A stretch of 53,212 bases of DNA from Kiritimatiellia bacterium (GTDB lineage: Bacteria; Verrucomicrobiota; Kiritimatiellia; CAIQIC01; Lenti-01): positions 1-53,212 of the forward strand of contig JAFTAH010000043.1 of the NCBI GenBank assembly GCA_017458625.1, given 5' to 3'. This document shows positions 1 through 28,909 of this stretch, in pieces. The position numbers and the translations under genes were made by a program. The notes below the pieces were generated by a model. The model was given only the letters and a program-made list of their open reading frames with translations. It searched no databases and had not been told where the DNA came from. Each line of letters starts with the position of its first letter. Within the stretch, counting starts at the first letter, position 1.

Positions 1-6
1 CGGGGG

Positions 7-3816: not shown

Positions 3817-3913
3817 GTCTGGAAATTCACCTGCCTTCGCACGTTCACCGGCGCGGCCTGGCGGCCTGCGTCCGGCCCGTCCCGGCGGAGTGCCGGAACG
3901 GAAATCGGCGCGA

Positions 3914-3942: not shown

Positions 3943-4008
3943 ATCCAAAAAGGCGGCTACGGCAAGAAAGTTGCGGAGGGCGGTTCGCCCGGGGGGCTGG
4001 CGGCACCG

Positions 4009-4578: not shown

Positions 4579-4697
4579 GATGGAATCCTGGGTAGGGGAG
4601 GGGAGGGCGGGCGGCGGCGAACCGTGGCCCGCGCGGTTTTTTGCGTTGCGCCATCTTTTCTCATGAGATAGAGTGGAAATGCAAGCGGGAAATAGCC

Positions 4698-5620: not shown

Positions 5621-6075
5621 TGAAGTGCCCGAAGTGCGGCAACGACAACGACCACGTCATTGATTCCCGCACCGTCATGCAGGGCGTGGCGGTCCGGCGG
5701 CGGCGCCAGTGCCTCGCCTGCGGCCATCGCTACACCACGCGCGAGATGGCCGTCGCCCTGCCCCTGATGGTCCAGAAGCGCGATGCCCGCCTCGAGGAAT
5801 TCGACAAACAGAAGCTGCGGCGGTCCATCGAGCACGCCTTCGTGAAGCGTCCGGTCGGCGTCAACCAGATTGCCGAGCTTGTCGCCACCATCGAGGAGCG
5901 CCTCAAGGCCGCCTACGAGGATCTCGTGCCCTCGACGGAAATCGGGCGCCTCGTGATGGAAGGCCTTGAGCGGCTGGACGAGGTGGCCTATCTGCGCTAT
6001 GCGTCCATCTTCAAGCGCTTTCGCGATGCCACCCAGTTCACCAGCGAGGTCGAGAACCTCATCCGTCGCGAGTAG
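5620..6075 (+). CDS. nrdR: Transcriptional repressor NrdR
   Basis: Senses ATP/dATP and represses ribonucleotide reductase genes. The 151-residue length is standard. The N-terminal zinc ribbon uses Cys3, Cys6, Cys31 and Cys34 (CPKC...CLACGHRYTT), and the rest is an ATP-cone domain (from about 49, PLMVQKRDARLEEFDKQKL). The start ATG overlaps the upstream stop (TGATG). No nrd structural gene is in the window. Confidence 0.95.
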   Translation: MKCPKCGNDNDHVIDSRTVMQGVAVRRRRQCLACGHRYTTREMAVALPLMVQKRDARLEEFDKQKLRRSIEHAFVKRPVGVNQIAELVATIEERLKAAYEDLVPSTEIGRLVMEGLERLDEVAYLRYASIFKRFRDATQFTSEVENLIRRE

Positions 6076-6093
6076 CCGGGAAATGTCGCGGCG

Positions 6094-6879: not shown

Positions 6880-6993
6880 CGGGGAGCGAATGGCGCAGCC
6901 TCATGGCGCGGAGACAGGAAAGGGGACAGCCCTGGGAAAGGCTATCTGGAATCATCGACAGCATCCGATGTCGTCGACTCCGGCGGAACCGTT

Positions 6994-7082
6994 TTCCATT
7001 GAATGGAAGCATGTTTTGGCCTTTTTCCATTGAATGGAAGCATGTTTGGGCATAATTTCCAGACAATGGAAACATGTTTTGC
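6994..7082. repeat. Triple TTCCA-N5-TGGAA dyad (family B)
   Basis: Three copies of a 15-bp dyad at 6994-7008, 7025-7039 (both TTCCATTGAATGGAA) and 7057-7071 (TTCCAGACAATGGAA), each followed by [AG]CATGTTT. The spacing is 31 and 32 bp centre to centre, about three helical turns, so all three sit on the same DNA face. Related copies are at 15521-15535 and 21061-21076. Confidence 0.85.
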
Positions 7083-7107
7083 GCGGGAGGGAAACGGCGG
7101 TTGATGC

Positions 7108-7130
7108 GGCAACGGCGGGGACACCGTTGC
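7108..7130. repeat. GGCAACGG/CCGTTGC palindrome
   Basis: GCAACGG and CCGTTGC form a 7-bp stem around a GC-rich loop. The same palindrome occurs at 30077-30097, 30949-30968, 40666-40689 and, in mirror form, 44704-44722. It is followed by TACATCGGGCGGG, which also recurs. Confidence 0.75.
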
Positions 7131-7154
7131 TACATCGGGCGGGCGCAAAAAAGA

Positions 7155-7235
7155 CAGTTGCTCCCGCGATGGGGCATAGAGGGAGCAGTGTACTGCGACC
7201 GCTAGCCAGTGCCCGTGTGCAACCGAAACGGCTAC
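7155..7235 (-). repeat. Hairpin repeat family C, inverted copy
   Basis: The reverse complement begins GTAGCCGTTTCGGTTGCACA and contains CGGTCGCAGTA and a hairpin of CCCTC/GAGGG type. It matches the plus-strand copies at 17681-17813 and 30180-30311. It lies at the 3' end of thiD, as the other copies lie at 3' ends of minus-strand genes. Confidence 0.7.
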
Positions 7236-7252
7236 AGAAAAGAAGAACAGCT

Positions 7253-8053
7253 CTAGAACTCAGGTGTGGGAATCGCGAACATGTGGTCCATGGGGCCGGC
7301 GCCTCTGCCAAGATCGAGCATTGCGGCCAGCGCCCCCGAGAGGTAGGCCTTGGCGGCACGGATGGCCTCGGGTAGCGAGCGGCCCATCGCAAGATTGCAG
7401 GCGATGGCGGATGACAGGGTGCAGCCGGTCCCGTGGGTGTTGGGATTGTCGATGCGCGGGGAACGGAACCATGTCCCTTGCCCCTCGTGCCAGAGGAGAT
7501 CCGTGGCGTCGTTGACGAGATGCCCCCCCTTGACCAGAATGGCCCCGGGATAAAACGCGGCAATGGCCTGGGCGGCGGCAATCATGTCGTCGGCGCCGCG
7601 AATGGGGCGCTTGGCCAGGACTTCGGCCTCGGGAATATTGGGCGTGATGACCGTGGCCAGCGGGAAGAGGCGGGCGACCAGGGCATCGGCCGCATCCTCG
7701 GCGATCAGCCGTGCGCCGCTGGTGGCGACCATCACCGGGTCAAGGACGATGTTGGGAGCGTGGTACTGCTCGAGCTTGGCGGCGATGGCCTCGATGATGT
7801 CGGCCCGGGAGACCATTCCGATCTTGACGGCGGCAGGAGGGATGTCGGTGAAGATGGCGTCCAGCTGGGCGGCGACAAAGGCCGGGGGCACATCGTGGAT
7901 GCCGAACACGCCCGTGGTGTTCTGGGCGGTCAGGGCGGTGATGGCCGACGTGCCGAAGAGCTTGTGGGCGGTAATGGTCTTGAGGTCAGCCTGGATGCCG
8001 GCCCCTCCGGAGCTGTCGGATCCGGCAATGGCAAGGACGGACTTGAGTTTCAT
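7253..8053 (-). CDS. thiD: Hydroxymethylpyrimidine/phosphomethylpyrimidine kinase
   Basis: Phosphorylates HMP and HMP-P in thiamin synthesis and salvage. The 266-residue ribokinase-fold protein has the N-terminal AIAGSDSSGGAGIQADLKT, LDPVMVATSG for substrate binding and the anion-hole motif NTHGTGCTLSSAIA near residue 210. It follows tenA by 15 bp and must share the TPP-riboswitch-controlled message. No thiE, thiC or thiG gene is present here, so the operon looks like pyrimidine salvage. Confidence 0.96.
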   Translation of the reverse strand: MKLKSVLAIAGSDSSGGAGIQADLKTITAHKLFGTSAITALTAQNTTGVFGIHDVPPAFVAAQLDAIFTDIPPAAVKIGMVSRADIIEAIAAKLEQYHAPNIVLDPVMVATSGARLIAEDAADALVARLFPLATVITPNIPEAEVLAKRPIRGADDMIAAAQAIAAFYPGAILVKGGHLVNDATDLLWHEGQGTWFRSPRIDNPNTHGTGCTLSSAIACNLAMGRSLPEAIRAAKAYLSGALAAMLDLGRGAGPMDHMFAIPTPEF

Positions 8054-8068
8054 GGCAGTCTCTCCTGG

Positions 8069-8731
8069 CTACATCTGAAGATGGTAGGCGCTATCCCAGA
8101 AGGCGAATTCCGCCTCGGTGGCGCGGTCGTACGCCGCCGTCATGGCCTCCTGGAGGGCCGGGGCGGCCGCGGCATGTTCGTCGCAAACGGCAATGCACTG
8201 CCGGACCTCGGCGTCGAAGGCATCACAGGCGTAGGTGTCAATCCAGGCCTGGTAGGGATTCGCCCCGCGCGTTTGGTGGGCCACGATGTGGCGTCCGACC
8301 TCGTTGTAGACCCAGAAACACGGCAGGATCGCAGCCAGGCTGACCTCCAGCTGACCGGCAGCCGTGCATTCGCGTAGAAAACCGGTGTAGTCCGCGCAGG
8401 CGGCCGACTTGATGGGCTGGGGTGGGATGTGGAAGGCGCGGATGAAGGACTCGTGCAGCTGCTGTTCACAAAGGACAGCCTCCTCGGCGAAATGCTGGAA
8501 AAGGGCTTTCTGGTCGGGTTTCACGAGAAGCCGGGCGATGGCGGCCAGCGCCTCTCCGTAGTCCTGGAGGTAGAGCGCGTCCTGCTGGATGTAGAACTCG
8601 AACTTGGGGCGCGGCAACGTGCCGGCGGCCAGCTCGGCCAGATAGGGCATGGCCAGGATGCGGTTGAAGATGGGGAGGGCGTGGTTCCAGGCCTGCTGGC
8701 TCCACGGTTGTTCGCGATGGCATTCGCTCAT
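8069..8731 (-). CDS. tenA: Aminopyrimidine aminohydrolase / thiaminase II family
   Basis: Releases HMP from degraded thiamin (base salvage), providing the substrate for ThiD. The 220-residue all-helical protein shows the TenA pattern: FNRILAMPYLAELAAGTLP, FEFYIQQDALYLQDYGEALA and the C-terminal YQAWIDTYA. The start at 8731 is fixed by GGAAAG 6-8 nt upstream and by the riboswitch ending just before it. It is first in the tenA-thiD operon. Confidence 0.93.
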   Translation of the reverse strand: MSECHREQPWSQQAWNHALPIFNRILAMPYLAELAAGTLPRPKFEFYIQQDALYLQDYGEALAAIARLLVKPDQKALFQHFAEEAVLCEQQLHESFIRAFHIPPQPIKSAACADYTGFLRECTAAGQLEVSLAAILPCFWVYNEVGRHIVAHQTRGANPYQAWIDTYACDAFDAEVRQCIAVCDEHAAAAPALQEAMTAAYDRATEAEFAFWDSAYHLQM

Positions 8732-8738
8732 GATTTCT

Positions 8739-8830
8739 TTCCTTTCGCCGGCATGACCCGGATCAAGTTCCGTTTTGCAACAAGGGTATGTTCTCAGCCG
8801 CGGACCCTCGTCCAGCGGCACCCCGATTCG
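8739..8830 (-). ncRNA. TPP riboswitch (THI box) leading tenA-thiD
   Basis: On the minus strand the leader contains GGGGTGCC, then GGCTGAGA...ACCC, GAACTTGATCCGGGT and ATGCCGGCGAAAGGA, the conserved parts of the thi-box aptamer in the right order. The aptamer ends at the tenA ribosome-binding site, which suggests control by hiding the Shine-Dalgarno rather than by transcription termination. The single base change in the usual GAACCTGATC is at the less constrained C. Confidence 0.93.
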
Positions 8831-8836
8831 CCGCCA

Positions 8837-8864
8837 AGCATAGTCTTCCCCGCGCGCAAGTCAA
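8837..8864 (-). promoter_or_regulatory. Sigma70-type promoter of the tenA-thiD operon
   Basis: TTGACT (8864-8859) and TATGCT (8842-8837) on the minus strand are 16 bp apart. The expected start site falls at the 5' edge of the riboswitch, which supports the assignment. Confidence 0.75.
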
Positions 8865-9002
8865 TGCTCAAGCGCTCGACCCGCGAAACGCGGGCAAACC
8901 ACGTGACAACGCCTGCCCAGTCCCTGGGGAGAGCGATTTCCCGGGCGTCACGCCGCAGGCCGGTCCTGCTGCCCCGAGACCGGGCGGCGGGGGCGTCCGG
9001 GG

Positions 9003-11528
9003 TCAGTCTGGGGCGCCGGCGCGGATGAAGACGAGGGGGTTGGTGATGGAGATGTAGTTGGTGGACCAGCCCGCTTCGCCGGCAAGGAGGTTGGTGGAGT
9101 ACTGGAGGCCGGAGGAGGTATGGTCGAGCGTCGTGCCGTTGTCGAGGTCGAAGCGGAAGGTGCCGTCGGCAGGGTTGAAGACGAAGTTGGTGATGGTGAC
9201 GGCATCCGAGACGGGTTCGGGCGGCAGGCCGCGCCGATAGAAGGAATGGACGGCATTGCCCGAAGCGGACGTGGCCGTGGTGAAGAAGAGCTTGCTGGTG
9301 TCGAAGCGCGCGTAGCGGTTGGAGCTGCCGCCGGTCTCGGCCTGGACGCCCAGGTTGAGGATGACGGCATCGCCGTCGACCGTCGGGCTTGGCGTGATGT
9401 TCCAGTAGAGGAAGAAGTTTGTGGCGGTGGGGTCGCAGAGGGCCTCCTCCTCGATGGCGTCCTCGCTCCAGGCGTAGAAGTTGTTCTTGGCATAGGCGGC
9501 CTTGTAGCCGGCGTACTTGTAGGTCTTGATGGCGGTGGAGCAGAAGAGGAAGCCATCGGTGGAGCCGTCGGGAAGCGGCTTGAGATGCCAGATGAGGTTG
9601 GTGTCGGCGGAGCGGATGACGCCTTGGGCGTCAGGCTCGACGGGGGTTCCGGCGTAGGTCGGGGCGGTGCCGGTGGAGGACGGCTCGCCCATCGCGTAGG
9701 CATTGGAGGCGACGGTGGCGACGATGAGGTAGTCGCCCTCGGTCAGGTCGGCAAGATCATTGACACGGACATAGGTGGGATAGGTGGAGGGGTCGGTGAC
9801 ATCGATGAAGAACTTGCGCGTCGCCGTGCCGCCATCGTACGTCGCGGTGATGACCACCTCGCCGTTGGTGGCGGCCTCGGGCGTCCACGTCCAGAGCCCG
9901 GTCTCCGCATCGACCTCGCCGGCGGAGACGGTCCAGGCGGTGGCCTGGGCGTTGTTGAGGAGGAAGGTGTTGGTCAGCAGGTCGCCGATTTCGGCGGATT
10001 TGGGGGGTACGGCGGCGTAGGCGATGGCCGGGGTGGCGTCCACGGTGCCGTAGGTGACGACGATCTTGTCCAGATAGGCGACGGGGCTCGACGACTTGGT
10101 TCGGATGCCGATGTAGGCGTAGCCGGAGATCTCAAGCGAGGAGGAGCTCCCGTTGACGATGCTCCCGAGGTTGACGCCCTGCAGGTCGCGGTCGAAAAGG
10201 TCGGCGGGCGAGAGGTAGGGCTGGTGGCTGCCGTAGACGTAGAGGGTCGCGTCCGCCCCGGTCTTCGCGTTCCAGACGACGCTCACCTGGGAAGGGTTCT
10301 TGCCGCCGTTCCAGCTCATGGCGAGGCCGGAACTCTTGTCCGTTTCGCGGAACTGGATGCAGGGCGAGGCTGCCGCCCCCCCGGCACCATACCCGAGATA
10401 GTGCGAGCCGGAGGGCTTGTTCATGATTGGGTTTTTCGTCCACTCGGCATACGTGGAGGAGGTGCGGCCGACATCCGCGTTGTCGAAGGTGTCGCCGGTG
10501 GCGAGAGGCGCGAAGTCGGCGCTGATGACGACGTTGGTGGCCGGCATGTTGAAGACGTTGCCCTCGAACGGCTCGCCGTTGGCGTAGAGCGTGGACAGCA
10601 CGTAGCCTTCGGCCTGGACGACGGTGACGGTGACGGAGTGGTTCGCGATGGCGGTGGCCGGGCCGGAAAGCGTGCCAAAGGCGTTCGTCGCATAGGTGAT
10701 GGAATAGGGCGTGACGACGGAGAACGTGACCGTGTTGGTGGCAACGACGGTGGGGTCGTCCTGGTCGGTCGCGATGACGCTCACCGTGAGGGCGTCTGCC
10801 GCCTCTTCGGGGTCGAAGGAGAACGTGTCGCCCTCCAGGGCCACCGACGCGCCGTTGCGGAACCACGCGAAGTCGACGTTCGCGCCAAACGTGGAGTTGG
10901 GATGCGCCGTGATGGTGGCCGTGTCGCCGAGGATGAGCTCGCCATCCTTGAACGAATAGGAAAACGGAACCACGGGGGGCAGCGGCGTGCCGTCGTAGGC
11001 GATGTCGAAGCGCGACAGCGCCACGACCTGCGACTTGGCCCGGAGCCCGATGTAGGGATAGAGCTCGGAGCCCGCGTAGACGAACTCGTCGTAGTTGCCG
11101 CTCTCGGGGCTGGTGAAGGTCGCCAGGACGGTCGCGCACTCCGTGCAGTAGAGATCCAGGGAGGAGGTCAGCGGCGTGGCCGAGCCCAGCACCTCGAGGG
11201 TGCGCCCCTTCACGGCGGACGAGTCCCAGTGGATGGCAATTGCGGAAAAGTTGCCGCCGGAGTTGGTCGAAACGATTCCAGTAGCCTTGGCCAGGTCCTT
11301 CGTGAGGCTGATGGTCCCCTTGTAGACTTTGGCATTGCCGGCGTAGACCGCCGGGGAACCGCGTTCACCGACCACACCGGAAAAGTTCGTGTAGCTCGAT
11401 TTCGAGAAGCCAAAGCTGGCGGCTGTGAGCGTGTCCAGTCCGGCGGCGGATGCAATATGCGGCGCGAGGCAGGCCAGCAGGGTACCGACAAGCACGGGGG
11501 AAAGAACGTGTGACATAGCTTGCTTCAT
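9003..11528 (-). CDS. Large secreted multidomain protein of unknown function
   Basis: 841 residues with a clear signal peptide (MKQAMSHVLSPVLVGTLLAC..., cleavage near IASAAG, about residue 29). The rest is strand-rich with very low Lys content and many Thr/Ser/Asn. An Ig-like or PKD-like part is visible at about 190-280 (DTATITAHPNS...WFRNG), then an InlB-type beta-repeat-like part, then a putative-Ig segment TNTFLLNNAQATAWTVSAG, and a C-terminal region ending in FVFNPADGTFRFDLDNG. No catalytic motif is recognised. The start at 11528 has GAGGAGCT 3 nt upstream; the open frame before it is repeat sequence. It is probably a surface or extracellular protein. Confidence 0.8.
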   Translation of the reverse strand: MKQAMSHVLSPVLVGTLLACLAPHIASAAGLDTLTAASFGFSKSSYTNFSGVVGERGSPAVYAGNAKVYKGTISLTKDLAKATGIVSTNSGGNFSAIAIHWDSSAVKGRTLEVLGSATPLTSSLDLYCTECATVLATFTSPESGNYDEFVYAGSELYPYIGLRAKSQVVALSRFDIAYDGTPLPPVVPFSYSFKDGELILGDTATITAHPNSTFGANVDFAWFRNGASVALEGDTFSFDPEEAADALTVSVIATDQDDPTVVATNTVTFSVVTPYSITYATNAFGTLSGPATAIANHSVTVTVVQAEGYVLSTLYANGEPFEGNVFNMPATNVVISADFAPLATGDTFDNADVGRTSSTYAEWTKNPIMNKPSGSHYLGYGAGGAAASPCIQFRETDKSSGLAMSWNGGKNPSQVSVVWNAKTGADATLYVYGSHQPYLSPADLFDRDLQGVNLGSIVNGSSSSLEISGYAYIGIRTKSSSPVAYLDKIVVTYGTVDATPAIAYAAVPPKSAEIGDLLTNTFLLNNAQATAWTVSAGEVDAETGLWTWTPEAATNGEVVITATYDGGTATRKFFIDVTDPSTYPTYVRVNDLADLTEGDYLIVATVASNAYAMGEPSSTGTAPTYAGTPVEPDAQGVIRSADTNLIWHLKPLPDGSTDGFLFCSTAIKTYKYAGYKAAYAKNNFYAWSEDAIEEEALCDPTATNFFLYWNITPSPTVDGDAVILNLGVQAETGGSSNRYARFDTSKLFFTTATSASGNAVHSFYRRGLPPEPVSDAVTITNFVFNPADGTFRFDLDNGTTLDHTSSGLQYSTNLLAGEAGWSTNYISITNPLVFIRAGAPD

Positions 11529-11610
11529 CGTAGCTCCTCTAAAGACATCAAGAGGATAACATGGCCTTCCGTTGGCTTCAAGGGGAAAGAGAGCCGCCTC
11601 GGAGGGGGGG

Positions 11611-11885
11611 GTGAGCAAAAAGTGTAAGGGTTTCAATGGAGGACGGGCAGAAAATGGCCTTGTTTGTTGAAAAACAGTCGAAAATCGCATGTCTATGAAA
11701 ATATAGACATATCATTTGGCCTTTTGCGGTCGAGGGAGACGCCTGGGGGCGCGGGCGTCTCGCCCGCGAAAATCCAAAGGATGGCGGGAGAACGGTTTAC
11801 CAAGGGGGCTTCCCAGGGAACATCGCGGGCGGGCCGCCCGCGCCCCCAGGGCAATCGCCCGTACCTCACACTTTTTGCTCACACC
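11611..11885. mobile_element. IR-bounded element, family A, copy 2 (long form with nested palindrome)
   Basis: Same ends as copy 1 (GTGAGCAAAAAGTGTAAGG at 11611-11629 and its mirror at 11864-11885) and a nearly identical left 134 bp. About 95 bp at roughly 11741-11838 are absent from copy 1. This insert begins CCTGGGGGCGCGGGCG and ends in the mirror CGCCCGCGCCCCCAGG, so it is itself a palindrome-ended unit nested in the element. The CTGGGGGCGCGGGCG motif recurs at 26661-26675. Confidence 0.75.
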
Positions 11886-11957
11886 CCGGCGGTCGGGCGG
11901 TTGCATCAATTCCGGAATTGCTCTTGAGCGAGGTTGCAAACAACTCGGATGCGCCCC
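11886..11957. repeat. Truncated right end of family F element
   Basis: CGGCGGTCGG...GAGCGAGGTTGCAAACAACT...GATGC matches the right end of the complete element at 23639-23905. It begins exactly where element A copy 2 ends, which suggests that A interrupted or replaced the left part of an F copy. Confidence 0.65.
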
Positions 11958-12073
11958 GGCTGGAGACGGCCCGAGGTTTGAAGGCAGGCATGGGAATCGC
12001 CCCTGGCCTTCGTCAGGTGAAGAGGGAAAAGGCAAAGGATATCCGCCTGCTTTCGCAGGGGGAGGGGAACGAG

Positions 12074-12487
12074 CTAGCGAGTCAGCTTCAGCGCGTGCGT
12101 CGATCCGGTGGCGGTCACGATCGTGCCCAGGCCCATGCGTTGCGAGGAATTGAAGGTGACAGAAACGAGATAGGAAGTGGTCTTGAAGGAGACCGTCCAT
12201 TCGGCCTGGTAGCCGGAGAGGTGTCCGTTAATGGCGCCACTCTCGCTGTTGGCAAGATACATTCTTCCGGTCAACTTGCCTTTCGGCGTCATCGAGAGGG
12301 TCGTCGTACCGACGGCGGTGTCATCCAGTGTCGTCGCCCAGCTCCCCGAGCAATTGAAGGCCGGATCATGGTCATAGGCGGCATCGTCATGGTCATGGTC
12401 GCTCTTGTTGTTTTCGCAGCCGCACAATCCCACCGCCAGCAACCCCGCCATCGCCAGCCTGCCCATCACACTCATCCATTTTCTCAT
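12074..12487 (-). CDS. Small predicted lipoprotein
   Basis: 137 residues with a lipoprotein signal (MRKWMSVMGRLAMAGLLAVG, lipobox LCGC, Cys24). The mature part starts with a His/Asp-rich run (NNKSDHDHDDAAYDHDP), a plausible metal-binding or flexible segment, then a compact strand-rich domain (GSWATTLDDTAVG...GKLTGRMYL...) that resembles small lipocalin- or beta-barrel-type lipoprotein domains by eye only. The ATG at 12487 is chosen over a GTG at 12496 because AAGGAG lies 8 nt upstream. The function is unknown. Confidence 0.75.
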   Translation of the reverse strand: MRKWMSVMGRLAMAGLLAVGLCGCENNKSDHDHDDAAYDHDPAFNCSGSWATTLDDTAVGTTTLSMTPKGKLTGRMYLANSESGAINGHLSGYQAEWTVSFKTTSYLVSVTFNSSQRMGLGTIVTATGSTHALKLTR

Positions 12488-12909
12488 GTCCAGCACTCCT
12501 TCTAGCCTTTGGCAATTGCCTCACGCGCCTTGGACAGACGTGTCAAAGCGCGTTATTTCCACTATATGCTCACGATGCCCGGTCTGCAATCCTGTTTTTC
12601 CGAAAAAACTTCCAGGGGGGGGGCCCGGAGCCGGACGGGGGGGGATGAGGAGGAGGGAAAGATGCAAAAAATGGCGGTTTTGACGTAAACTCACATGGTT
12701 TTTGGGGCTGGGGGGAGGGGGCGGGCACCGAAATGGCCGAAATCGCCGATTCGACGAGGCCGAGGAGGGCGACGAGGCAGACGATGGCGAAAAACGAAAG
12801 AGGGGAGGGGAGGAGGTTGCAGACAAAAACATGTGAAGTTTCGAATTTTTGACTTGAAGTCCGGGTGATTTGAACGTAGATTTTGCCAAGTTTTCGGAAT
12901 TACTGGAAA
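12488..12909. other. Spacer between lipoprotein and ilvB
   Basis: 422 bp without a convincing gene. It holds repeat H copy 1 (12662-12707) and, just before ilvB, an AT-richer stretch (12810-12905) that should contain the ilvB promoter. I see no leader peptide rich in branched-chain codons and no clear attenuator. Confidence 0.5.
12662..12707 (+). repeat. CGTAAACTCA repeat (family H), copy 1
   Basis: ATGCAAAAAA...GGTTTTGA-CGTAAACTCA-CATGGTTTTTGGGG. The same layout (TGC, A-run, T-run, CGTAAACTCA, 6-7 nt, TTGGGG; 45-46 bp overall) is found at 32768-32812 inside hypF and 39266-39310 at the prenyltransferase start. Confidence 0.7.
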
Positions 12910-14742
12910 ATGGAAGCGAAAAAAGAGCAAAAAAATGTCAAAACCGGGGCCGAGCTATTGGTGGATGGGCTGGCGGCAGGCGGGGTGAAGGTGGTGTTCG
13001 GGGTGCCGGGGGGGGCGGCGATTCCGCTGTACGACGCGCTGTATCTGCACGGGGCGGGGATGCGTTTCGTGCTGACGCGGCATGAGCAGGGGGCGGCCCA
13101 CATGGCGGATGGCTATGCGCGGGCGACGGGGCGGCTGGCGGCGGTGCTGGTGACGGGCGGGCCAGGGGCGACGAACACGGTGACGGGGATCATGACGGCG
13201 TACATGGACAGCGTGCCGATGGTGGTGGTGACGGGGCAGAGCGACCGGGCGATGCTGGGGAAGGACGCGTTCCAGGAGACGGACGTGTTCAATCTGATGA
13301 TGCCGATCGTGAAGCACAGCTATCTGGTGAAGTCGGCGGCGGAGATTCCGCGGGTGGTGGCGGAGGCGTGCCATATCGCGACGACGGGGCGTCCGGGGCC
13401 GGTGCTGCTGGACGTGCCGCGGGATGTGGCGGAGGAGCTGGCGGCGGGGCCCGGGGTGGGGGAGGCGGTGGCGATGTCGCTGCCGGGGTATCATCCGGTG
13501 GCGCGGGCGTACGGGCGGGAGACGCTGGAGCAGGTGGCGGCGGCGCTGAAGGCGGCGCGGCGGCCGGCAATCCTGGCGGGGCATGGGGTGGTGCTGGCGG
13601 GGGCGAGCGCGGCGTTGCGGGCGTTGGCGGAGAAGCTGGAGGCGCCAGTGACGACGACGCTGCTGGGCAAGGGGGTGTTCCCGGACGGGCATCGGCTGTG
13701 TCTGGGGATGCCGGGGGTGTACGGGGGGGCGGGGGCGAATCTGGCGCTGTCGGAGTGCGACGTGCTGCTGGCGGTGGGCGCGCGGCTGGACGAGCGGGTG
13801 ACGGCGATTCCAGAGCGGTTCGGGCGGGACGCGACGGTGATCCACGTGGACGTGGATGCGGCGGAATTTGGCAAGATGGTGCAGGCGGACGTGTGCGTGG
13901 AAGGGGACGCGCGGGCGGTGCTGGAGGATTTGCTGCCGCTGGTGGAGAAATGCGACAGCGGGGAGTGGCAGAAGCGGCTGGCGGCGTGCCGGCGGCGGTT
14001 CGAGGCGACGACGGGCGGGGGGGCGTCGGAGCGCCAGCCGGGGGGCATCCGGCCGCTGGCGGTGCTGCGGGAGCTGCGGGCGCAGACGTCGCCGGAGACG
14101 GTGCTGGCGACGGATGTGGGGCTGCATCAGATGTGGGCGGCCCAGGCGTGGTCGTGCGCGGCGCCGGGGCAGTTCCTGACGAGCGGGGGCGGCGGCACGA
14201 TGGGCTTCGGGCTGCCGGCGGCCATCGGGGCGCAGCTGGGGCGGCCGGGGACGCCGGTGGTGGCGGTGGTGGGGGACGGGGGCTTCCAGATGACGCTGTG
14301 CGAGCTGGCGACGATGGTGGTGCAGAAGCTGCCGATCAAGGTGTTCGTGATGAACAACCACTATCTGGGGATGGTGCGGCAGCTGCAGGACATTTTCCGG
14401 GAGGGGCATTTCAGCGGGGTGGAGCTGGAGGGGAATCCGGACTTTGCCGCGTTGGCAAAGGCGTACGGGGCGACGGGACTGTCGCTGCGGCGGCATGCGG
14501 ACATCCGGAAGGTGGTGCGGAAGGCGCTGGCGACGGAAGGGCCCGTGGTGGTGAACGTGGAGGTGGCGCGGCGGGAGGAGGTGTTCCCGATCGTGCCGCC
14601 GGGGCATCCGCTGAACGAAATGGTGTTCGAGCGGCCGCGGCGGGGGCGGGGACGGCCAGCAGGCGGGTCGGCGGCGGCCGCGGCGGCGGGGGCGGACGAG
14701 GCCGCGAAGGCGGTGACGGATATCACGAAGGAGGTGCACTGA
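12910..14742 (+). CDS. ilvB: Acetolactate synthase, large subunit
   Basis: Condenses two pyruvates, or pyruvate and 2-oxobutyrate, in branched-chain amino acid synthesis; uses ThDP, Mg and FAD. Of 610 residues, the catalytic Glu is Glu59 (RHEQGAAHMADGYAR), the FAD/middle domain spans about 190-345, and the ThDP/Mg motif GDGGF (455-459)...NN (482-483) is intact. A low-complexity Arg/Gly/Ala tail (about 570-605) is extra. The start at 12910 is chosen because homology begins soon after; the ribosome site is weak. The stop overlaps ilvN (TGATG). Confidence 0.95.
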   Translation: MEAKKEQKNVKTGAELLVDGLAAGGVKVVFGVPGGAAIPLYDALYLHGAGMRFVLTRHEQGAAHMADGYARATGRLAAVLVTGGPGATNTVTGIMTAYMDSVPMVVVTGQSDRAMLGKDAFQETDVFNLMMPIVKHSYLVKSAAEIPRVVAEACHIATTGRPGPVLLDVPRDVAEELAAGPGVGEAVAMSLPGYHPVARAYGRETLEQVAAALKAARRPAILAGHGVVLAGASAALRALAEKLEAPVTTTLLGKGVFPDGHRLCLGMPGVYGGAGANLALSECDVLLAVGARLDERVTAIPERFGRDATVIHVDVDAAEFGKMVQADVCVEGDARAVLEDLLPLVEKCDSGEWQKRLAACRRRFEATTGGGASERQPGGIRPLAVLRELRAQTSPETVLATDVGLHQMWAAQAWSCAAPGQFLTSGGGGTMGFGLPAAIGAQLGRPGTPVVAVVGDGGFQMTLCELATMVVQKLPIKVFVMNNHYLGMVRQLQDIFREGHFSGVELEGNPDFAALAKAYGATGLSLRRHADIRKVVRKALATEGPVVVNVEVARREEVFPIVPPGHPLNEMVFERPRRGRGRPAGGSAAAAAAGADEAAKAVTDITKEVH

Positions 14743-15260
14743 TGAGCAGCCAGATGCGGGAGAAGCCGTGCCGGACGGTCCGGAACTTGTCGATCTACGT
14801 GGCGAACCGTCCCGGGGCGCTGGCGCGGATTGCGCAGACGTTTTCGCGGCGGGGGTTCAACATCGATTCGCTGGTGGTGTCGGCGGGGGCGACGCCGGGG
14901 TTTTCGCGGATGACCATCACGGCGGAAGGGGACGAGGCGGGGTGGGACCAGATCATCGCGCAGTGCTCGAAGCTGGTGGACGTGGTGGCGTGCCGGTGCC
15001 ACGAGGACGAGGACGCGGTGGTGCGGGAGCTGGCGCTGGTGAAGATCCGGTGCGACCTGGCGGCGCGGACGGAGGTGTTGCAGATCGCGGACCATTTCCG
15101 GGCGAAGACGATGGACCTGACGGAGACGTCGATGATCTTGCAGGCGACGGGGAGTCCGAGCAAGCTGGACGCGATGGTGGGGCTGCTGCGGAAGTTCGAG
15201 ATCGTGGAGCTGGTGCGGACGGGGAAGGTGCTGATGGCGCGCGGGGAGGAGGCGACATAA
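14742..15260 (+). CDS. ilvN: Acetolactate synthase, small regulatory subunit
   Basis: 172 residues. The N-terminal ACT domain (LSIYVANRPGALARIAQTFSRRGFNIDSL) binds valine in this family and gives feedback control of IlvB. The C-terminal ALS_ss_C part (VKIRCDLAARTEVLQIADHF...) completes the usual length. It is coupled to ilvB by a 1-bp stop/start overlap. Confidence 0.95.
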   Translation: MSSQMREKPCRTVRNLSIYVANRPGALARIAQTFSRRGFNIDSLVVSAGATPGFSRMTITAEGDEAGWDQIIAQCSKLVDVVACRCHEDEDAVVRELALVKIRCDLAARTEVLQIADHFRAKTMDLTETSMILQATGSPSKLDAMVGLLRKFEIVELVRTGKVLMARGEEAT

Positions 15261-15348
15261 GCCCCCGGAGGGGGCGCTTGAAAAGTTGCAAGGTTGAAAA
15301 AGCGGGAGGGTCGCTGTTGATGGCGACCGCTGGCGGGAGAAGGGGCTC

Positions 15349-15535
15349 GCGCAGAGGCGCATAGGCGCAGAGAAGTTGAAGGTTGAAAGGTTGAAGAGCT
15401 GAAGGGTGATTCACCACGGAACACACGGAAAACACGAAAAAGTTGAAAGTTGCCGGAAGGGAGTCGAGTTTTTTCGAGAATTTCGACAGTTTCGAGCATT
15501 TCGAGGAGTGGGAAACAGGTTTCCATTGAATGGAA
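15349..15535. repeat. Run of four different short-period arrays plus one family B dyad
   Basis: Four successive degenerate tandem arrays: 15349-15372 is GCGCANAG x3 (period 8); 15375-15405 is GTTGAANN x4 (period 7-8); 15415-15441 is CACGGAANA-like x3 (period 9); 15472-15507 is TTTCGANNN x4 (period exactly 9). A TTCCATTGAATGGAA dyad follows at 15521-15535. These account for most of the 364-bp spacer 15261-15624; no gene is seen there. Confidence 0.8.
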
Positions 15536-15624
15536 GTGGGTTTTGAGTGATTTCTTTTGTGAGGGCGCGGGAGTTGTTGTAGGATTGCGCGTGCGCGAGG
15601 GGGAGAGAGAGATAGAGGTAGAAG

Positions 15625-17355
15625 ATGTCGTTGCTGCAACGGTTCGTGAACAGGACGGAGTTCTCGTCGTACGAGGACTTCTACGAGAATTTTCGCATCG
15701 AGGTGCCGGAGAACTTCAACTTCGGGTACGACGTGGTAGACGCGTATGCGGCGGCGGAGCCGGAGCGGCGGGCGCTGGTGTGGTGCGACGACCACGGAGG
15801 GGAGCGGATCATCAGCTTCGGGGAGCTGAAGCGGCTGAGCGACGCGGCGGCGCAGTTCCTCCAGGACGCGGGCATCCGGAAGGGGGACTGCGTGATGCTG
15901 CTGATGGGAGGGCGGTACGAGTTCTGGATCGCGATGGTGGCGCTGCACAAGCTGGGGGCGCTGGCGATTCCGGGGTCGCACATGCTGAAGGCGCACGATC
16001 TGGAGTATCGCTACCGGCTGGGGGACATCCGGCTGGTGCTGTGCAACGACCGGGAGGACCTGCGGGAGGAGGTGGCGGCGGCCGCGGCGACGCCGGGGCT
16101 GCCCATCGTGCCGAAGCTGGTGACGCTGCACGGGGCGCCGAAGGGGTGGCTGGCGCTGCATGATGCGCTCGACGAGCCCGGGCTGTCGCGGCTGGCGGGG
16201 CGGTTTGCGCGGCCGACGGGGGAGCAGGCGACGCGGAACGGGGATCCGATGCTGGCGTACTTCACGAGCGGGACGAGCGGGGAGCCGAAGCTGACGATGC
16301 ACAACTTCGTGTATCCGCTGGGACACATCACGACGGCGCGCTATTGGCAGAACGTGGAGGACGGGGGGCTGCACTACACGCTGGCGGACACGGGGTGGGC
16401 GAAGACGGCGTGGGGCAAGCTCTACGGGCAGTGGATCGCGGGGACGGCGATCTTCGTGCACGACTACGAGCGCTTCAACGCCCAGCGGACGATGGAGGTG
16501 TGCGCGAAGTACAAGGTGACGACGTTCTGCGCGCCGATGACGGTGTACCGCTATCTGGCGAAGGAGGACTTGTCGGAGTACGACTTTTCGTCGATCCACC
16601 ATGCGGCGATGGCCGGGGAGCCACTGAACGCGGCGGTGTACCAGCGGTTTGGGGCGGCGACGGGGCTGCGGCTGATGGAGGGGTTCGGGCAGAGCGAGAG
16701 CTGCGTGATCATGGCGAACTTCCTGTGGATGGAGCCGAAGCCGGGGAGCGTGGGGCGCGGGTCGCCGGTGTTCCGGCCCTGCCTGCTCAAGGACGACGGG
16801 ACGCTCGCGGAGGAGGGCGAGACCGGGGAGCTCGTCCTGCCGATGGATCGGGGGGCGCCGCCAGGACTCACCATCGGCTACTACAAGAACCCCGAGGCGA
16901 CGACCGAGGTCTTCCGCGATGGCTACTACCACACCGGCGACCTGTGCTGGCGCGATGCGGACGGGTATTTCTGGTTCGTGGGGCGGAACGACGACATCAT
17001 CAAGTCGAGCGGCTACCGGGTGGGGCCGTTCGAGGTGGAGAGCGCCCTGGTGGCGCATCCGGCGGTGCTGGAGGCGGCGGTGACGGGGCTGCCGGATCCG
17101 GACCGCGGGCAGATCGTCAAGGCCACGGTGGTGCTGGCGCGGGGGTTCTCGCCGAGCGAGGTGCTGGTGAAGGAGCTGCAGGACTTCGTGAAGAAGGAGA
17201 CCGCCCCGTACAAGTATCCGCGCCGCATCGAGTTCGTGGACGAGCTGCCGAAGACCACGAGCGGCAAGATCCAGCGCAAGGAGATTCGCAAGCGCGACCT
17301 CGAGCGGCTGCATGCGGAGGCGATGAAGGCGGCGGCGGAAGAGGTGGGGAAGTAA
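15625..17355 (+). CDS. Acyl-CoA synthetase (AMP-forming), acetyl/medium-chain type
   Basis: Activates a carboxylic acid to its CoA thioester through an acyl-AMP. The 576-residue ANL-family protein has the P-loop YFTSGTSGEPK (212-222), the A5-like EGFGQSE, YYHTGDLCWRD with the ribose-binding Asp, GRNDDIIKSSGYRVGPFEVE, and the C-terminal catalytic Lys in PKTTSGKIQRKE. The overall pattern (HMLKAHDLEYR, ADTGWAKTAWG) is that of medium-chain/ACSM-like synthetases; the substrate cannot be fixed. It stands alone between two repeat-filled spacers, after ilvBN. Confidence 0.88.
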   Translation: MSLLQRFVNRTEFSSYEDFYENFRIEVPENFNFGYDVVDAYAAAEPERRALVWCDDHGGERIISFGELKRLSDAAAQFLQDAGIRKGDCVMLLMGGRYEFWIAMVALHKLGALAIPGSHMLKAHDLEYRYRLGDIRLVLCNDREDLREEVAAAAATPGLPIVPKLVTLHGAPKGWLALHDALDEPGLSRLAGRFARPTGEQATRNGDPMLAYFTSGTSGEPKLTMHNFVYPLGHITTARYWQNVEDGGLHYTLADTGWAKTAWGKLYGQWIAGTAIFVHDYERFNAQRTMEVCAKYKVTTFCAPMTVYRYLAKEDLSEYDFSSIHHAAMAGEPLNAAVYQRFGAATGLRLMEGFGQSESCVIMANFLWMEPKPGSVGRGSPVFRPCLLKDDGTLAEEGETGELVLPMDRGAPPGLTIGYYKNPEATTEVFRDGYYHTGDLCWRDADGYFWFVGRNDDIIKSSGYRVGPFEVESALVAHPAVLEAAVTGLPDPDRGQIVKATVVLARGFSPSEVLVKELQDFVKKETAPYKYPRRIEFVDELPKTTSGKIQRKEIRKRDLERLHAEAMKAAAEEVGK

Positions 17356-17680
17356 GAAGGGGAGGGGGAGGAGTCGCCAGAGAGGGACAAGGGCATGGGC
17401 AAGGCCCCTGCGCCCCGAGAAAAGGGGGGACGAGTGGGGGGGAGGGCAGAGAGGCCGTGGCGCAAGCGGCCCGGAACTGGATCAAGGCGGGAGAGGAAAA
17501 AATGGCAAAAATGCCAATGTCTGACCCAAAAACACGCGTATTTGGAGGACAGGGAAAGGGGGGGCTGGGACAGCTGGGATGGTGAGACCACATGGACGAG
17601 GGGCGGGAAGCGGGGGGGGAGTGGGGGGGCGACAGGCTGGCGGTCAGGGGGGGGAGGGCTGGCGCGGTTCGAATTTTTCT
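17356..17680. other. Spacer without recognised gene
   Basis: G-rich sequence after the acyl-CoA synthetase. I see no gene and no clear terminator for the upstream gene. A short mirror (GGCAAAAATGCC, near 17504) is the only local structure. Confidence 0.4.
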
Positions 17681-17813
17681 GTAGCCGTTTCGGTTGCACA
17701 CAGGCACAGGCTGGCGGTCGCAGGAAACCGCGTCCCTCCCGCTGTGCCCCAGCGCGGGAGGGACGCAATTCATTGCGTCCGGCGGGCTATACTTTTCATG
17801 GATCCGCTCTAGG
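17681..17813 (+). repeat. Hairpin repeat family C, copy at hydrolase 3' end
   Basis: Starts GTAGCCGTTTCGGTTGCACA and contains a perfect 11-bp stem GTCCCTCCCGC/GCGGGAGGGAC (17732-17764), then GCAATTCATTGCG and GGCGGGCTAT, ending at the CTAG that holds the hydrolase stop. It is about 75% like 30180-30311. The strong hairpin could end transcription or protect the mRNA of the minus-strand operon. Confidence 0.8.
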
Positions 17814-18723
17814 GGGCGGGGGCGGGGGAGATGGCGGCGCGGAGAAAGGCGTCGAGGGCGGCGTGGGCAGGGGAGTTGGTCTGGAGCCAGGCGTAGTCGG
17901 AGTGGGCGCCGTTGAGGAGCGCGAACTGCTTGGGGGGGGCGGCGGCCTCGGCGAGGAGGCGGCCTGAGGCGAAGGGGACCGTGGTGTCGGCAGGGGAATG
18001 CAGGAAGAGCTTGGGGATGTCGGGGAGGCGAGAGGCGTAGTCGCCGGCGGGGAAGTGGGCGGTGAGGAGGTGGGCGAGGGGCAGGCGGGGGAAGAGGAGG
18101 TGGGCCATGTTGGTGGCGGAATGGAAGCCGCTGTCGAGGATGAGGGCGACGGGCGGGACGGGGGATTCGAGGGCGGCATGGAGGCAGACGGGGACGCCCA
18201 GGGAGTGGCCGTAGAGGAGCAGCGGGAGGCGGGGGCGGGCGAACTTGTTCATCTTGAGGGCGACGTCGATGGCCGCCTTGGCGTCGAGGTAGAGGCCGGA
18301 CTCGGTGGGCGTGCCCTCGGACTGGCCGTAGCCGCGGTAGTCGAAGAGGAAGACGTTGTAGCGGCGGGCGTGGAAGAAGGGCAGGAGCTTGAGATTGTAG
18401 GAGATGTTGCCGGCGTTGCCGTGGAAAATCACCAGGTTGGCGACGGGGTAGGAGGCCGGGATCCACCAGCCGTGGAGCTGGGTGCCGTCATCCGCGCGGA
18501 AGGTGACGTTCTGGTGGACGAGGTCGACGGCGTAGGGGTTGGCTGTGACGTCGGGGCTGGGGCGGTAGAGGAAGCTACGCTCGTAGCGGTGGAAGAGGAG
18601 GATGCCGCCAAGTCCAAAGGCCAGTCCGAGGAAGAGGACGAGGAAGAGCACCAGCCGCAGGCGGCGGAGGAAGCGCGCGAGGCGGGGGTGCCGGGAAGGG
18701 GCCTTGGCAACGTTTTTCTTCAC
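17809..18723 (-). CDS. Alpha/beta hydrolase, membrane-anchored (BEM46-like)
   Basis: 304 residues. An N-terminal membrane anchor (about 22-44) precedes a hydrolase domain with oxyanion segment FHGNAGN (100-106), nucleophile elbow GHSLG (Ser174), Asp246 in HSPADTTVPF and His274 in NGAHSDY, a full catalytic triad. This is the pattern of the BEM46/ABHD13-like serine hydrolases; the substrate is unknown. It overlaps the permease gene by 4 bp and is the last gene of a four-gene operon. Confidence 0.85.
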   Translation of the reverse strand: MKKNVAKAPSRHPRLARFLRRLRLVLFLVLFLGLAFGLGGILLFHRYERSFLYRPSPDVTANPYAVDLVHQNVTFRADDGTQLHGWWIPASYPVANLVIFHGNAGNISYNLKLLPFFHARRYNVFLFDYRGYGQSEGTPTESGLYLDAKAAIDVALKMNKFARPRLPLLLYGHSLGVPVCLHAALESPVPPVALILDSGFHSATNMAHLLFPRLPLAHLLTAHFPAGDYASRLPDIPKLFLHSPADTTVPFASGRLLAEAAAPPKQFALLNGAHSDYAWLQTNSPAHAALDAFLRAAISPAPAP

Positions 18724-20195
18724 GGGGAGGGGGGAGGGGAGCAGGAGGCGGGCTGCGCGGAAGGCGCTTCGGGCGCGGGAGGCTCGGGAGGAGGCGTGGC
18801 AGGGACAGCTGGGGCCTCTGGGACGGAGGGGGCGGGCGGCTCAGGGGCAGGGGGCGGGGAGGGGAAGAGAGAGGAGAAGGGGGAGAGGGGGCCGGGCGTG
18901 CCGGGAGGCACCATGGGGACGGCGGCCTTCTTCTTCTTTTTCTTTTTCCTGCGCCTGGAGGAGGAGGGGGTGTCGGGCGGTGGCGGGGTGTCGCGGATGA
19001 CATCGTCGGGAGAAAGGTCGTCGGTGGCGGGGGCGAAGAGCAGGTCGTCGTCCGTGGGGGCGTCGGGTTCGGGCGACGGAGAGGCGTGGCGGCGGGGGTG
19101 GCGGCGGCGGAGGAGGGAGCGGGCATGGTGCTTGGAGGAGCCCATGAGGATGGCCAGGGAGGTCAGGAACGGGATGTGTACCATGGTGATCTGGACGGTG
19201 GCGGCCAGTGGTACCGCCAGCAGCACGCCCGGGATGCCCCAGAGCCAGCCCCAGAAGAGCAGGAAGAGCAGGACGGTCACGGGGGAGAGGTTCAGGCGGT
19301 CGCCGTAGAGCTTCGGGGCCACGAGCGTGCCCAGGAGGAACTGGATGATGGTGAGGACCGAGGCGACCATCAGGGTCGGGCCCAGGGCGCCGCCGAACTG
19401 GACGAGGGCGGTGACGGAGGGCAGGATGGTCGCCACGATGGAGCCGAGGGTCGGGACGAAGTTCAGGGTGAAGGCGAGGAGGCCCCAGGTAAAGGCGAAG
19501 TCGACCCCCATGAGGATGAGGGCGGCCCAGAAGGCGAGTCCGGTGAGGAGGGAGACGATGAAGAGGCTGCCGAGGTAGATGGCGATCTGGGAGGAGATGG
19601 TGGCGAGGAGGCTGGAGATGGCGGCGCTGCGGCCGGGGAAGGCGGCGAGCAGCTTGTCGGAGGCGTAGGGGCGGGCGAGGAGCATGAAGAAGAGGAAGAT
19701 GATCACCAGGAGGGCGTTGTAGCCGAAGGAGAAGAGGGCGCGGGTGAGGCGCAGGAGGGAGGAGGTGACGGCGCTCTGGATGTCTATGCCGTCGAGGGCG
19801 CCGGGGGGGAGGTCGAGGCGGGCGGCGTAGTCGGCGATGAGGGCGGCGAGGCGGGGGGCGTAGGCGGGGAGCTTCTGGGCGAAGGTGAAGAGACGCTGCT
19901 GGACAATGGTGCCGGCGTAGATGGCCAGGGCGACGAGCACCACCAGGACGAAGGTGACGGAGATGGCGGAGGGCACGCGGCAGCGGCGGGTCAGGAAGTT
20001 GACAGGGGGGGCCAGGACGTAGGCGAGGAGCCAGGCGATGACCAGGGGGATGACGACGGACTGCGCGGCCTTCAGGACGACGCCGATGGCGATGATGGCG
20101 AGAATCCAGATGGGGATGGTGGCGGCGGAGACGGCCCGGGCGGAGAAAAGAGGGGGCGGGGTGGATTCGGTGGACTGGTCGAGGAAGTTGGTCAT
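18720..20195 (-). CDS. AI-2E family transporter (PerM-like) with long Pro-rich tail
   Basis: Residues 1 to about 350 are a typical AI-2 exporter/PerM family protein with about eight membrane segments and the conserved region LLFWGWLWGIPGVLLAVPLAAT. Family members move small molecules or act as Na+/H+ antiporters; the substrate here is unknown. Beyond about residue 355 there is a 135-residue cytoplasmic tail: His/Arg-rich, then acidic, then SSRRRKKKKKKKAA, then about 80 residues of Pro/Ala repeats. This tail is not part of the family. It overlaps both neighbours by 4 bp. Confidence 0.85.
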   Translation of the reverse strand: MTNFLDQSTESTPPPLFSARAVSAATIPIWILAIIAIGVVLKAAQSVVIPLVIAWLLAYVLAPPVNFLTRRCRVPSAISVTFVLVVLVALAIYAGTIVQQRLFTFAQKLPAYAPRLAALIADYAARLDLPPGALDGIDIQSAVTSSLLRLTRALFSFGYNALLVIIFLFFMLLARPYASDKLLAAFPGRSAAISSLLATISSQIAIYLGSLFIVSLLTGLAFWAALILMGVDFAFTWGLLAFTLNFVPTLGSIVATILPSVTALVQFGGALGPTLMVASVLTIIQFLLGTLVAPKLYGDRLNLSPVTVLLFLLFWGWLWGIPGVLLAVPLAATVQITMVHIPFLTSLAILMGSSKHHARSLLRRRHPRRHASPSPEPDAPTDDDLLFAPATDDLSPDDVIRDTPPPPDTPSSSRRRKKKKKKKAAVPMVPPGTPGPLSPFSSLFPSPPPAPEPPAPSVPEAPAVPATPPPEPPAPEAPSAQPASCSPPPSP

Positions 20196-26901: not shown

Positions 26902-27765
26902 ATGAAAGACACGACGAACGACATGACCTCGACCATCAACCAGCTGATCCAGCTGCAGGAACTCATCATTGCGAAGACGCAGCGGCTGGCGGCCAGCCCA
27001 CAGTCCAACTTGAGCCTCCTGGACGAGAATATTGCGTCGATGCGGAAGTGCGTGGCCCCCAAGGTGCTCCAGGATTTCGACCGGCTGCTGCAGAAGTCGC
27101 AGATCGCCATTGTGCCGATGGAGCAGGGCAAGTGCACGGCGTGCAACATGACCCTGCCGGTCTCGCTGGTGCATCAGGTGCATGCGGCGGAGGCCATCTA
27201 CCATTGCCCGAGCTGCGCGCGGTTGCTGTTCTACCGCGACGCGGACTCGTCGGCCCGGAACACCCGCCCGCCCCGGAAGCGCACCGAAGCCCCCAAGACC
27301 GGCATCGCCAAGTTCTCCAGCGACGCGCTGATGGTGCCGGACCTGGAAGGGAAGGACGCGGAGTCCGTCATCCGCGAGCTGGCCGAGAAGCTGAAGGATG
27401 CCAAGTACATCGACGATGCCGAGAAGCTGGTGATGGCGGCCATGGCCCGCGAGGCCGTGGATTCGACCGCGCTGGAGAATGGCTGCGCGTTTCCGCACGC
27501 CCGCGGCATCGAAGGCGGCGCGCTTTCCTTTGCGCTGGGCATTGCCAAGAAGCCCATCGCGTTTGATTCGTCCAAGAAGGCCTCGACGCAGATCGTGGTG
27601 CTGATGGTCATCCCGACGGCCGCCTCGACGTTCTATCTCAAGCTGATCGCCGGCTTCAACCGCGTCCTGATGGTCGAGAAGAACCGCGATGCCCTGCTGG
27701 CCACCGATACGCCCGAGAAGATGTGGAAGACCCTCGTCAAGCTGACGGCGAAGGATATCCCGTAG
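26902..27765 (+). CDS. Zinc ribbon - PTS EIIA (PtsN/fructose type) fusion protein
   Basis: 287 residues in two parts. Residues 1-112 have a helical, probably coiled-coil region (about 8-70) and a C4 zinc ribbon (Cys78, Cys81, Cys102, Cys105; GKCTACNMTLP...YHCPSCARLL) like DUF164/CdsZ proteins. Residues about 137-287 are a PTS EIIA type 2 domain with the phosphorylatable His199 in GCAFPHARGIEGG and the usual LKLIAGFNRVL helix. Joining them suggests a regulator in which phosphorylation state is coupled to a nucleic-acid- or protein-binding ribbon. No HPr, EI or EIIB/C gene is adjacent. It stands alone between repeat blocks. Confidence 0.85.
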   Translation: MKDTTNDMTSTINQLIQLQELIIAKTQRLAASPQSNLSLLDENIASMRKCVAPKVLQDFDRLLQKSQIAIVPMEQGKCTACNMTLPVSLVHQVHAAEAIYHCPSCARLLFYRDADSSARNTRPPRKRTEAPKTGIAKFSSDALMVPDLEGKDAESVIRELAEKLKDAKYIDDAEKLVMAAMAREAVDSTALENGCAFPHARGIEGGALSFALGIAKKPIAFDSSKKASTQIVVLMVIPTAASTFYLKLIAGFNRVLMVEKNRDALLATDTPEKMWKTLVKLTAKDIP

Positions 27766-27913: not shown

Positions 27914-28909
27914 ATGAATGAGAACATGGATACATCCTTGAAGTGTGCGCGCGAGGTGTTCGAGATCGAACTCGCGGCGCTACAGCGGACTTGCGGGCGG
28001 CTGGACGGACGCATCGGGGAGGCCGTCGAGGCGTTGCGGGAGGCCTTGGCGCGGGCGGGAAAGATTGTCGTCACGGGCATTGGCAAGTCCTACCACATTG
28101 GGCAGAAGATTGCCTCGACGCTGACTTCCACTGGCGCCCCGGCGATGATGCTTCATCCCTCGGAGGCCATGCACGGCGACCTCGGCATGCTGCAAGGCAA
28201 CGATGTGGTGCTGGCCCTGTCGTACTCCGGAGAATCGGACGAGCTGGTGCGGTTGCTGCCGCTCATCCGGCGGGCTGGCGTCCGGATTATTTCCATCACG
28301 GGCCAGGCGGAATCGACGCTGGGGAAGTATTCGGACATCGTGCTGGATGCCTCGGTGGAACGCGAGGCGTGCCCGTTCAACATGGTGCCGACGGCCTCGA
28401 CGACGGTGGCCCTGGCCATCGGCGATGCGTTGTGCATCGCGTTGCTCAAGGCCCGCGGGGTCGACCGGGACGAGTATGCGTCGTTCCATCCGGGCGGGGC
28501 AATCGGCAGAAGCCTGCTCCTCAAGGTCGACGACATCATGCGCACCGGAGATCGGCTGGCCGTCGTGTCCCAGCAGGCAACCGTGCGGGATGCGCTGATC
28601 GCCATGACCAAGGCCCAGGCGGGAGCGGTGGCGGTGGTGGCGGGGGCGGAGGACCGGACGGCGGTGGGACTGCTTACGGACGGGGACTTGCGGCGGTGTC
28701 TGGTATCGGGGCGGACGGACTTCCTGGACCGGCCGGTACGCTCGGCCATGACGGCCAATCCGACTTCGGTGCGGAGCGGCCGGCTCGCGGCGGAGGCGCT
28801 GAAGGTGTTCCAGGAGCACCACTTCGACGACCTCATGGTGTTGGCTGCGGACGGGCAGGTGCTCGGGATGATCGACATCCAGGACCTCCCGAAGTTCAAG
28901 GTGTTCTGA
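27914..28909 (+). CDS. kdsD: Arabinose-5-phosphate isomerase (KpsF/GutQ family)
   Basis: Converts ribulose 5-phosphate to arabinose 5-phosphate, the first step to KDO for lipopolysaccharide or capsule. 331 residues: an SIS domain (about 40-180; GIGKSYHIGQKIASTLTSTG, LSYSGESDE) and two CBS domains (about 205-331; VDDIMRTGDRLAVV, ...VRSAMTANPTSV...LGMIDIQDL). The full family architecture is present. The following isomerase gene starts 1 bp after the stop, so the two are cotranscribed. Confidence 0.93.
   Translation: MNENMDTSLKCAREVFEIELAALQRTCGRLDGRIGEAVEALREALARAGKIVVTGIGKSYHIGQKIASTLTSTGAPAMMLHPSEAMHGDLGMLQGNDVVLALSYSGESDELVRLLPLIRRAGVRIISITGQAESTLGKYSDIVLDASVEREACPFNMVPTASTTVALAIGDALCIALLKARGVDRDEYASFHPGGAIGRSLLLKVDDIMRTGDRLAVVSQQATVRDALIAMTKAQAGAVAVVAGAEDRTAVGLLTDGDLRRCLVSGRTDFLDRPVRSAMTANPTSVRSGRLAAEALKVFQEHHFDDLMVLAADGQVLGMIDIQDLPKFKVF

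Follow-up and report, generated by a model that had tools for sequence, protein, structure and literature searches.

Introduction

Type 2 EIIA proteins of the phosphotransferase system (PTS) contain two active-site histidines. In the PRD-containing regulators of the MtlR and LicR type, EIIA is a regulatory domain and not a part of a transporter. The zinc-ribbon proteins CT398 (CdsZ) and HP0958 (FlgZ) are both reported to bind RpoN, the sigma-54 factor (PMC5947703, PMC7482065). CT398 contacts RpoN through its coiled coil and not through its ribbon, and the ribbon of HP0958 binds mRNA (PMC5947703). In Proteobacteria, the classical position of ptsN is close to rpoN (PMC5024086). Here we describe a gene in which a zinc ribbon resembling that of CdsZ and FlgZ is joined to an EIIA domain in a single chain, hereafter called the fusion. 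The gene is located in a 53,212-nucleotide stretch of Kiritimatiellia bacterium DNA (GenBank assembly GCA_017458625.1, contig JAFTAH010000043.1, positions 1 to 53,212 of the forward strand), the whole of which is referred to as the window. The zinc-ribbon/EIIA architecture is real, ancient in origin, and conserved, and the fusion looks like an undescribed nutrient-signalling regulator. The architecture is widespread in one class, and no paper describing or characterising it was found in the open-access literature.

Results

Domain organization and predicted structure

The fusion gene extends from position 26902 to 27765 of the window on the forward strand, which also holds for all the features of the fusion given below, and encodes 287 amino acids. 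These limits are based on the open reading frame (ORF), the sequence, the orthologues, and their alignment. The ORF starts with the ATG at 26902, and the ATG at 26923, where most orthologues begin in the alignment, is a possible alternative start. The fusion of a zinc ribbon to an EIIA domain had been proposed from the letters and ORFs of the window without database searches (the sequence-only reading), and is confirmed by Pfam, as both domains score above their gathering cut-offs. The C4 zinc ribbon (PF02591, 36.3 bits versus 29.1) comprises residues 77–109 (27130–27228), and the PTS EIIA type 2 domain (PF00359, 82.1 bits versus 27) comprises residues 144–278 (27331–27735). The sequence-only reading had also placed Cys78, Cys81, Cys102, Cys105, and His199 correctly. 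His199, encoded by the CAC codon at 27496–27498, is the position that is phosphorylated in EIIA proteins.

The N-terminal region (residues 8–65; 26923–27096) is predicted by AlphaFold2 to be helical, and contains a conserved QLQEL motif, in which Q17 is present in 82 and Q19 in 80 of 82 distinct fusions. It had been read as a coiled coil; helices are indeed modelled, but they are three short ones of about 24, 13, and 13 residues (8–31, 38–50, and 53–65) and not the long hairpin of CdsZ. The ribbon is connected to the EIIA domain by a linker (residues 110–137; 27229–27312), delimited from the alignment, which by a charge count is mildly basic in the Kiritimatiellia fusions, with a mean net charge of +3.6 over 27 amino acids. 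Pfam detected no EIIB, EIIC, or transporter domain in the chain.

The AlphaFold2 model, composed of the short helices, the zinc ribbon, and the EIIA fold, has a mean predicted local distance difference test score (pLDDT) of 82 and a predicted template modelling score (pTM) of 0.59. In Foldseek searches, the EIIA part matches EIIA-Ntr (PtsN) of Neisseria (PDB: 2a0j) with a template modelling score of 0.87 on the target, and the zinc ribbon matches CT398 (PDB: 4ilo) over 73 columns at 1.2 Å. A profile search of the PDB sequences with the fusion retrieved the same two families, CT398/HP0958 and PtsN. The PDB matches to CT398 and HP0958 (PDB: 3na7), together with that to PF02591, bear out the earlier description of the ribbon as DUF164/CdsZ-like. 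A search of a viral fold library with the fusion gave no match at E ≤ 0.001, and plasmid records gave single-domain matches only, none of them covering 80% of the query.

The fusion is not the CdsZ of its genome, because a separate full CdsZ (PF24481 and PF02591) is encoded on contig C123 (L130, 3547–4383, reverse strand). That protein matches the CT398_CC domain PF24481 at 35.7 bits, whereas Pfam finds no match to it in the fusion. Canonical CdsZ identity was ruled out on these two grounds.

Invariant residues and an altered EIIA active site

The four ribbon cysteines are conserved in all 82 distinct fusions, as are Arg107, Arg183, Glu184, His199, Arg201, Glu204-Gly205-Gly206, Ser242, Phe244, Tyr245, and Trp275. 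The phosphorylatable histidine of EIIA is thus present in its PH motif in 82 of 82 fusions, whereas the second conserved active-site histidine is replaced in all of them by Tyr245 (27634–27636). The equivalent position is a histidine in 20 of 22 other EIIA domains of these genomes and in three of three EIIA structures from the PDB. In the HMMER alignment, PtsN and other EIIA proteins have this histidine within AHL, EHL, or SHI. The phosphorylation site is therefore kept and the second active-site histidine lost, so that the domain, which had been called intact, matches PF00359 and retains His199 but lacks half of the usual histidine pair.

Distribution of the fusion

All 56 sampled relatives have a match to the fusion, and it is full-length in 54 of them, with 39 genera represented and identities of 38–59%. 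The recurrence in 54 relatives rules out a gene-calling or assembly artefact, and, together with the invariant cysteines and His199, puts the fusion far beyond chance. The window's genome is 2.69 Mb long and 80% complete. A scan of named genomes for exact peptide patterns of the fusion gave 256 relatives; the 80 listed among them are metagenome-assembled genomes or isolates, mainly Kiritimatiellae, Lentisphaerae, or Verrucomicrobia by name, and the tree program places the named members in Kiritimatiellota. Going by the names of these relatives, we refer to the class as Kiritimatiellia. Of 388 sampled genomes of the phylum, 131 belong to the class, and 118 of these 131 have the full-length fusion, as tallied from the search tables. 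Outside the class, ten genomes of families f62 and f69 contain the fusion with its CxxC pairs and PH and FY motifs.

Three irregular occurrences were observed. Several genomes of family f25, which groups with Pontiella, have two full-length copies, for example G402 (L148, 4123–5004; L149, 4421–5278). Partial copies of the gene recur every 11.5 kb at both ends of contig C1 of G037 (positions 1–20000; L147), a pattern that resembles an artefact from the assembly of a circular contig. A Kiritimatiellia-type fusion with 57% identity is present in DUVE01000105.1 (L046), a record whose title, "Mollicutes bacterium", probably mislabels the organism.

Unfused gene pairs

In two genomes outside the class, the N-terminal and EIIA parts lie in one reading frame and are separated by a TAA codon. 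They represent two genes, because each half has its own start; the new ATG after the stop also rules out recoding of the in-frame stop codon. When a profile of this N-terminal part was searched, additional families proved to have short ORFs for a zinc ribbon alone, and 17 such split modules were examined, from seven families of the phylum (f45, f53, f56, f57, f59, f67, and f82). The next gene on the same strand encodes a standalone EIIA in all 17 cases, with 0–141 nucleotides from stop to ATG. The split halves match PF02591 and PF00359, one zinc half being just under the cut-off (28.8 versus 29.1 bits). No further neighbour common to the split modules of different families was seen. The 17 of 17 adjacency is the strongest evidence for joint action of the two parts.

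Both active-site histidines are present in 14 of the 17 split-module EIIA proteins, and the remaining three have tyrosine at the second site. In a tree of EIIA sequences, the fusions form one clade (99/86) and the split-module EIIA proteins, except that of L145, form another (98/96); the ptsN-like genes are placed apart from both. This tree is most simply read as the outcome of one fusion event. The zinc-ribbon arm and EIIA would at first have been two proteins of one operon, which may have become one chain in an ancestor of Kiritimatiellia and the two further families.

Gene neighbourhood

The neighbouring genes were named by reading their sequences and conserved clusters, and family searches apply only to the proteins run against Pfam. 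The sequence-only reading that the gene has no PTS neighbours holds at the window, but a ptsN-like EIIA gene with both histidines divergently adjoins the fusion in 13 of the 80 named loci, in most cases no farther than about 150 bp from it, and other families have the two halves themselves as adjoining genes. In the window's genome, the orthologue of that ptsN-like gene lies on a different contig (L001). Several Kiritimatiellia families (L058, L113, L077, L101, and others) have a gene for a PknB-like Ser/Thr kinase that is downstream of the fusion and convergent to it, often opposite the divergent ptsN-like gene.

Eight genomes of the window's family have the gene order dusB-rpoN-ilvE-(tolC, MFP, RND)-alkD-fusion-aroK-oppBC, all on one strand, with rpoN about 2.7–9.5 kb upstream of the fusion. 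This linkage is absent from the window's own locus, and elsewhere in the class it is seen only in G128, more loosely, at a distance of about 11 kb. The candidacy of rpoN as a direct operon partner was downgraded, since the linkage is limited to one family and unrelated genes lie between. In other families, rpsA precedes the fusion (f62), and gatAB and rlmN are near the fusion of Pontiella.

Just after the fusion gene, the intergenic segment 27817–27855 of the window contains a run of CTAG-containing units (ctagatgtctagaaatctaggattctagaattctagagg). The next gene downstream (27914–28909), as read from its sequence, encodes a putative arabinose-5-phosphate isomerase of the KpsF/GutQ type. In Escherichia coli, kdsD, which belongs to the same gene family, is located in the rpoN-ptsN region.

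Discussion

Proposed function and alternative explanations

The fusion is probably a regulatory switch that is fed by the PTS and has a zinc ribbon in its effector arm. The window's genome encodes EI and two HPr proteins with the GIHxRP site, which makes phosphorylation of His199 possible. In the proposed mechanism, EI and HPr of the cell would phosphorylate His199 of the EIIA domain, to an extent governed by the PEP/pyruvate (PEP, phosphoenolpyruvate) or nitrogen status. The resulting state would alter the EIIA domain, and this change may modulate how active the N-terminal mini-CdsZ arm, formed by the short helices and the C4 ribbon, is or how it binds. The arm would hold a partner in the cytoplasm, probably a component of the machinery for transcription or translation. 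The sequence-only reading had the phospho-signal sent to a nucleic-acid or protein partner, which was a supposition; the sequence itself reveals no such partner.

Several observations weigh against the regulatory switch. Tyr245 in place of the second active-site histidine may mean altered or absent phosphotransfer. The placement of the domains relative to each other is unsure because of the pTM value, and the modelled inter-domain geometry is thus uncertain. Of 193 class genomes, 185 have EI and 182 have rpoN, and the co-occurrence of the near-universal EI and HPr with the fusion is therefore uninformative; co-occurrence with either EI or rpoN was dropped as evidence. Some lineages can dispense with the fusion, because it is not found at full length in thirteen sampled class genomes, namely the six sampled from family f21 and seven scattered ones. 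Apart from EIIA, no neighbour is conserved across families, and the genomic context therefore names no target.

The altered active site raises the alternative that the domain is a pseudo-EIIA, either outside the phosphorelay or a dead-end acceptor, that serves the zinc-ribbon arm as a binding scaffold or dimerisation unit. The tyrosine recurs in the 82 distinct fusions, in the ten fusions outside the class, and in three split-module EIIA proteins. However, the invariance of Arg201 and of His199 within its PH motif, and the PH site of the split relatives, suggest that the position is still used, and the other 14 split-module EIIA proteins retain both histidines; we regard a pseudo-EIIA as rather unlikely. 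It is highly improbable that the fusion acts as an ordinary phosphotransfer subunit of a sugar PTS, with its zinc domain being decorative. The fusion contains the PF00359 domain, and its best NCBIfam domain match is the fructose IIA family TIGR00848, below the cut-off, but the chain has no EIIB or EIIC domain, the second histidine is lost, and no sugar-transport genes are among the conserved neighbours identified.

Two further alternatives concern the target of the arm, and the probabilities that we assign do not sum to one because both are partly special cases of the regulatory switch. The zinc-ribbon arm and the basic linker might bind RNA or DNA directly, with EIIA switching the binding. 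The positive charge of the linker in Kiritimatiellia is consistent with this, and the position of some fusions after rpsA or by rlmN and gatAB hints at translation. Direct nucleic-acid binding is nevertheless doubtful, as the fusions outside the class and the split proteins have no basic linker, and the neighbouring genes vary between families. Alternatively, the fusion might be a regulator of sigma-54, in which the CdsZ/FlgZ-like arm binds RpoN and EIIA makes the binding dependent on PTS phosphorylation. Among solved structures, the arm is closest to those of the reported RpoN binders CT398/CdsZ and HP0958/FlgZ; the ptsN–rpoN proximity described for Proteobacteria (PMC5024086), the upstream rpoN in eight genomes of the window's family, and the presence of rpoN in most class genomes also favour it. 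However, CdsZ binds RpoN through its long, N-terminal coiled coil (PMC5947703), which has no counterpart in the fusion, and the sigma-54 idea is thus attractive by association and weak by anatomy. Linkage to rpoN is restricted to a single family and spans unrelated genes; with about 130 genomes, one case such as that of G128 is to be expected by chance; no rpoN match was obtained in G205 (92% complete), which has the fusion; and rpoN is missing from the short flanks of the split modules. A sigma-54 regulator therefore appears unlikely, somewhat more so than a direct binder of nucleic acids. It is a tentative, speculative extension of the regulatory switch that, in one branch of Verrucomicrobiota only, phosphorylation of the fused EIIA directly gates the mini-CdsZ arm on RNA polymerase/sigma-54 or on RNA and physically couples the machinery of transcription or translation to a nitrogen-PTS signal.

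The targets of EIIA-Ntr are usually identified individually, by biochemical means. In the present case, evolution has linked EIIA with one partner, in some lineages in adjacent genes and in others within a single chain, so that the sequence by itself identifies the partner arm and the system is directly testable. The fusion represents a nearly universal, unnamed regulator of Kiritimatiellia, a class in which regulation has hardly been studied, and provides an example of an EIIA that has lost its second active-site histidine.

Comparison with known systems

The zinc part of the fusion resembles a shortened CdsZ/FlgZ. The C4 ribbon, with the helix that precedes it, aligns with residues 168–247 of CT398, and in the CdsZ from the window's genome it is the C-terminal half that the split arm matches. 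Unlike in CdsZ and FlgZ, the long coiled-coil hairpin is missing and an EIIA domain follows the ribbon, and the fusion scores 31.7 bits against the equivalog cut-off of 275 of NF047363. With PtsN/EIIA-Ntr the fusion shares the EIIA type 2 fold with a phosphorylatable histidine and the absence of an attached transporter, and the best matches to its structure are the PtsN proteins from Neisseria, E. coli, and Burkholderia. It differs from them in the N-terminal zinc-ribbon arm and the tyrosine at the second active-site position, and its 37.1 bits are far below the TIGR01419 equivalog cut-off of 138.7; a separate ptsN-like EIIA in which both histidines are present is also encoded in the window's genome. 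Like the PRD/EIIA regulators of the MtlR and LicR type, the fusion has a regulatory EIIA and no transporter part, but Pfam finds in it neither a PRD nor a DNA-binding helix-turn-helix, and its effector arm is instead a zinc ribbon.
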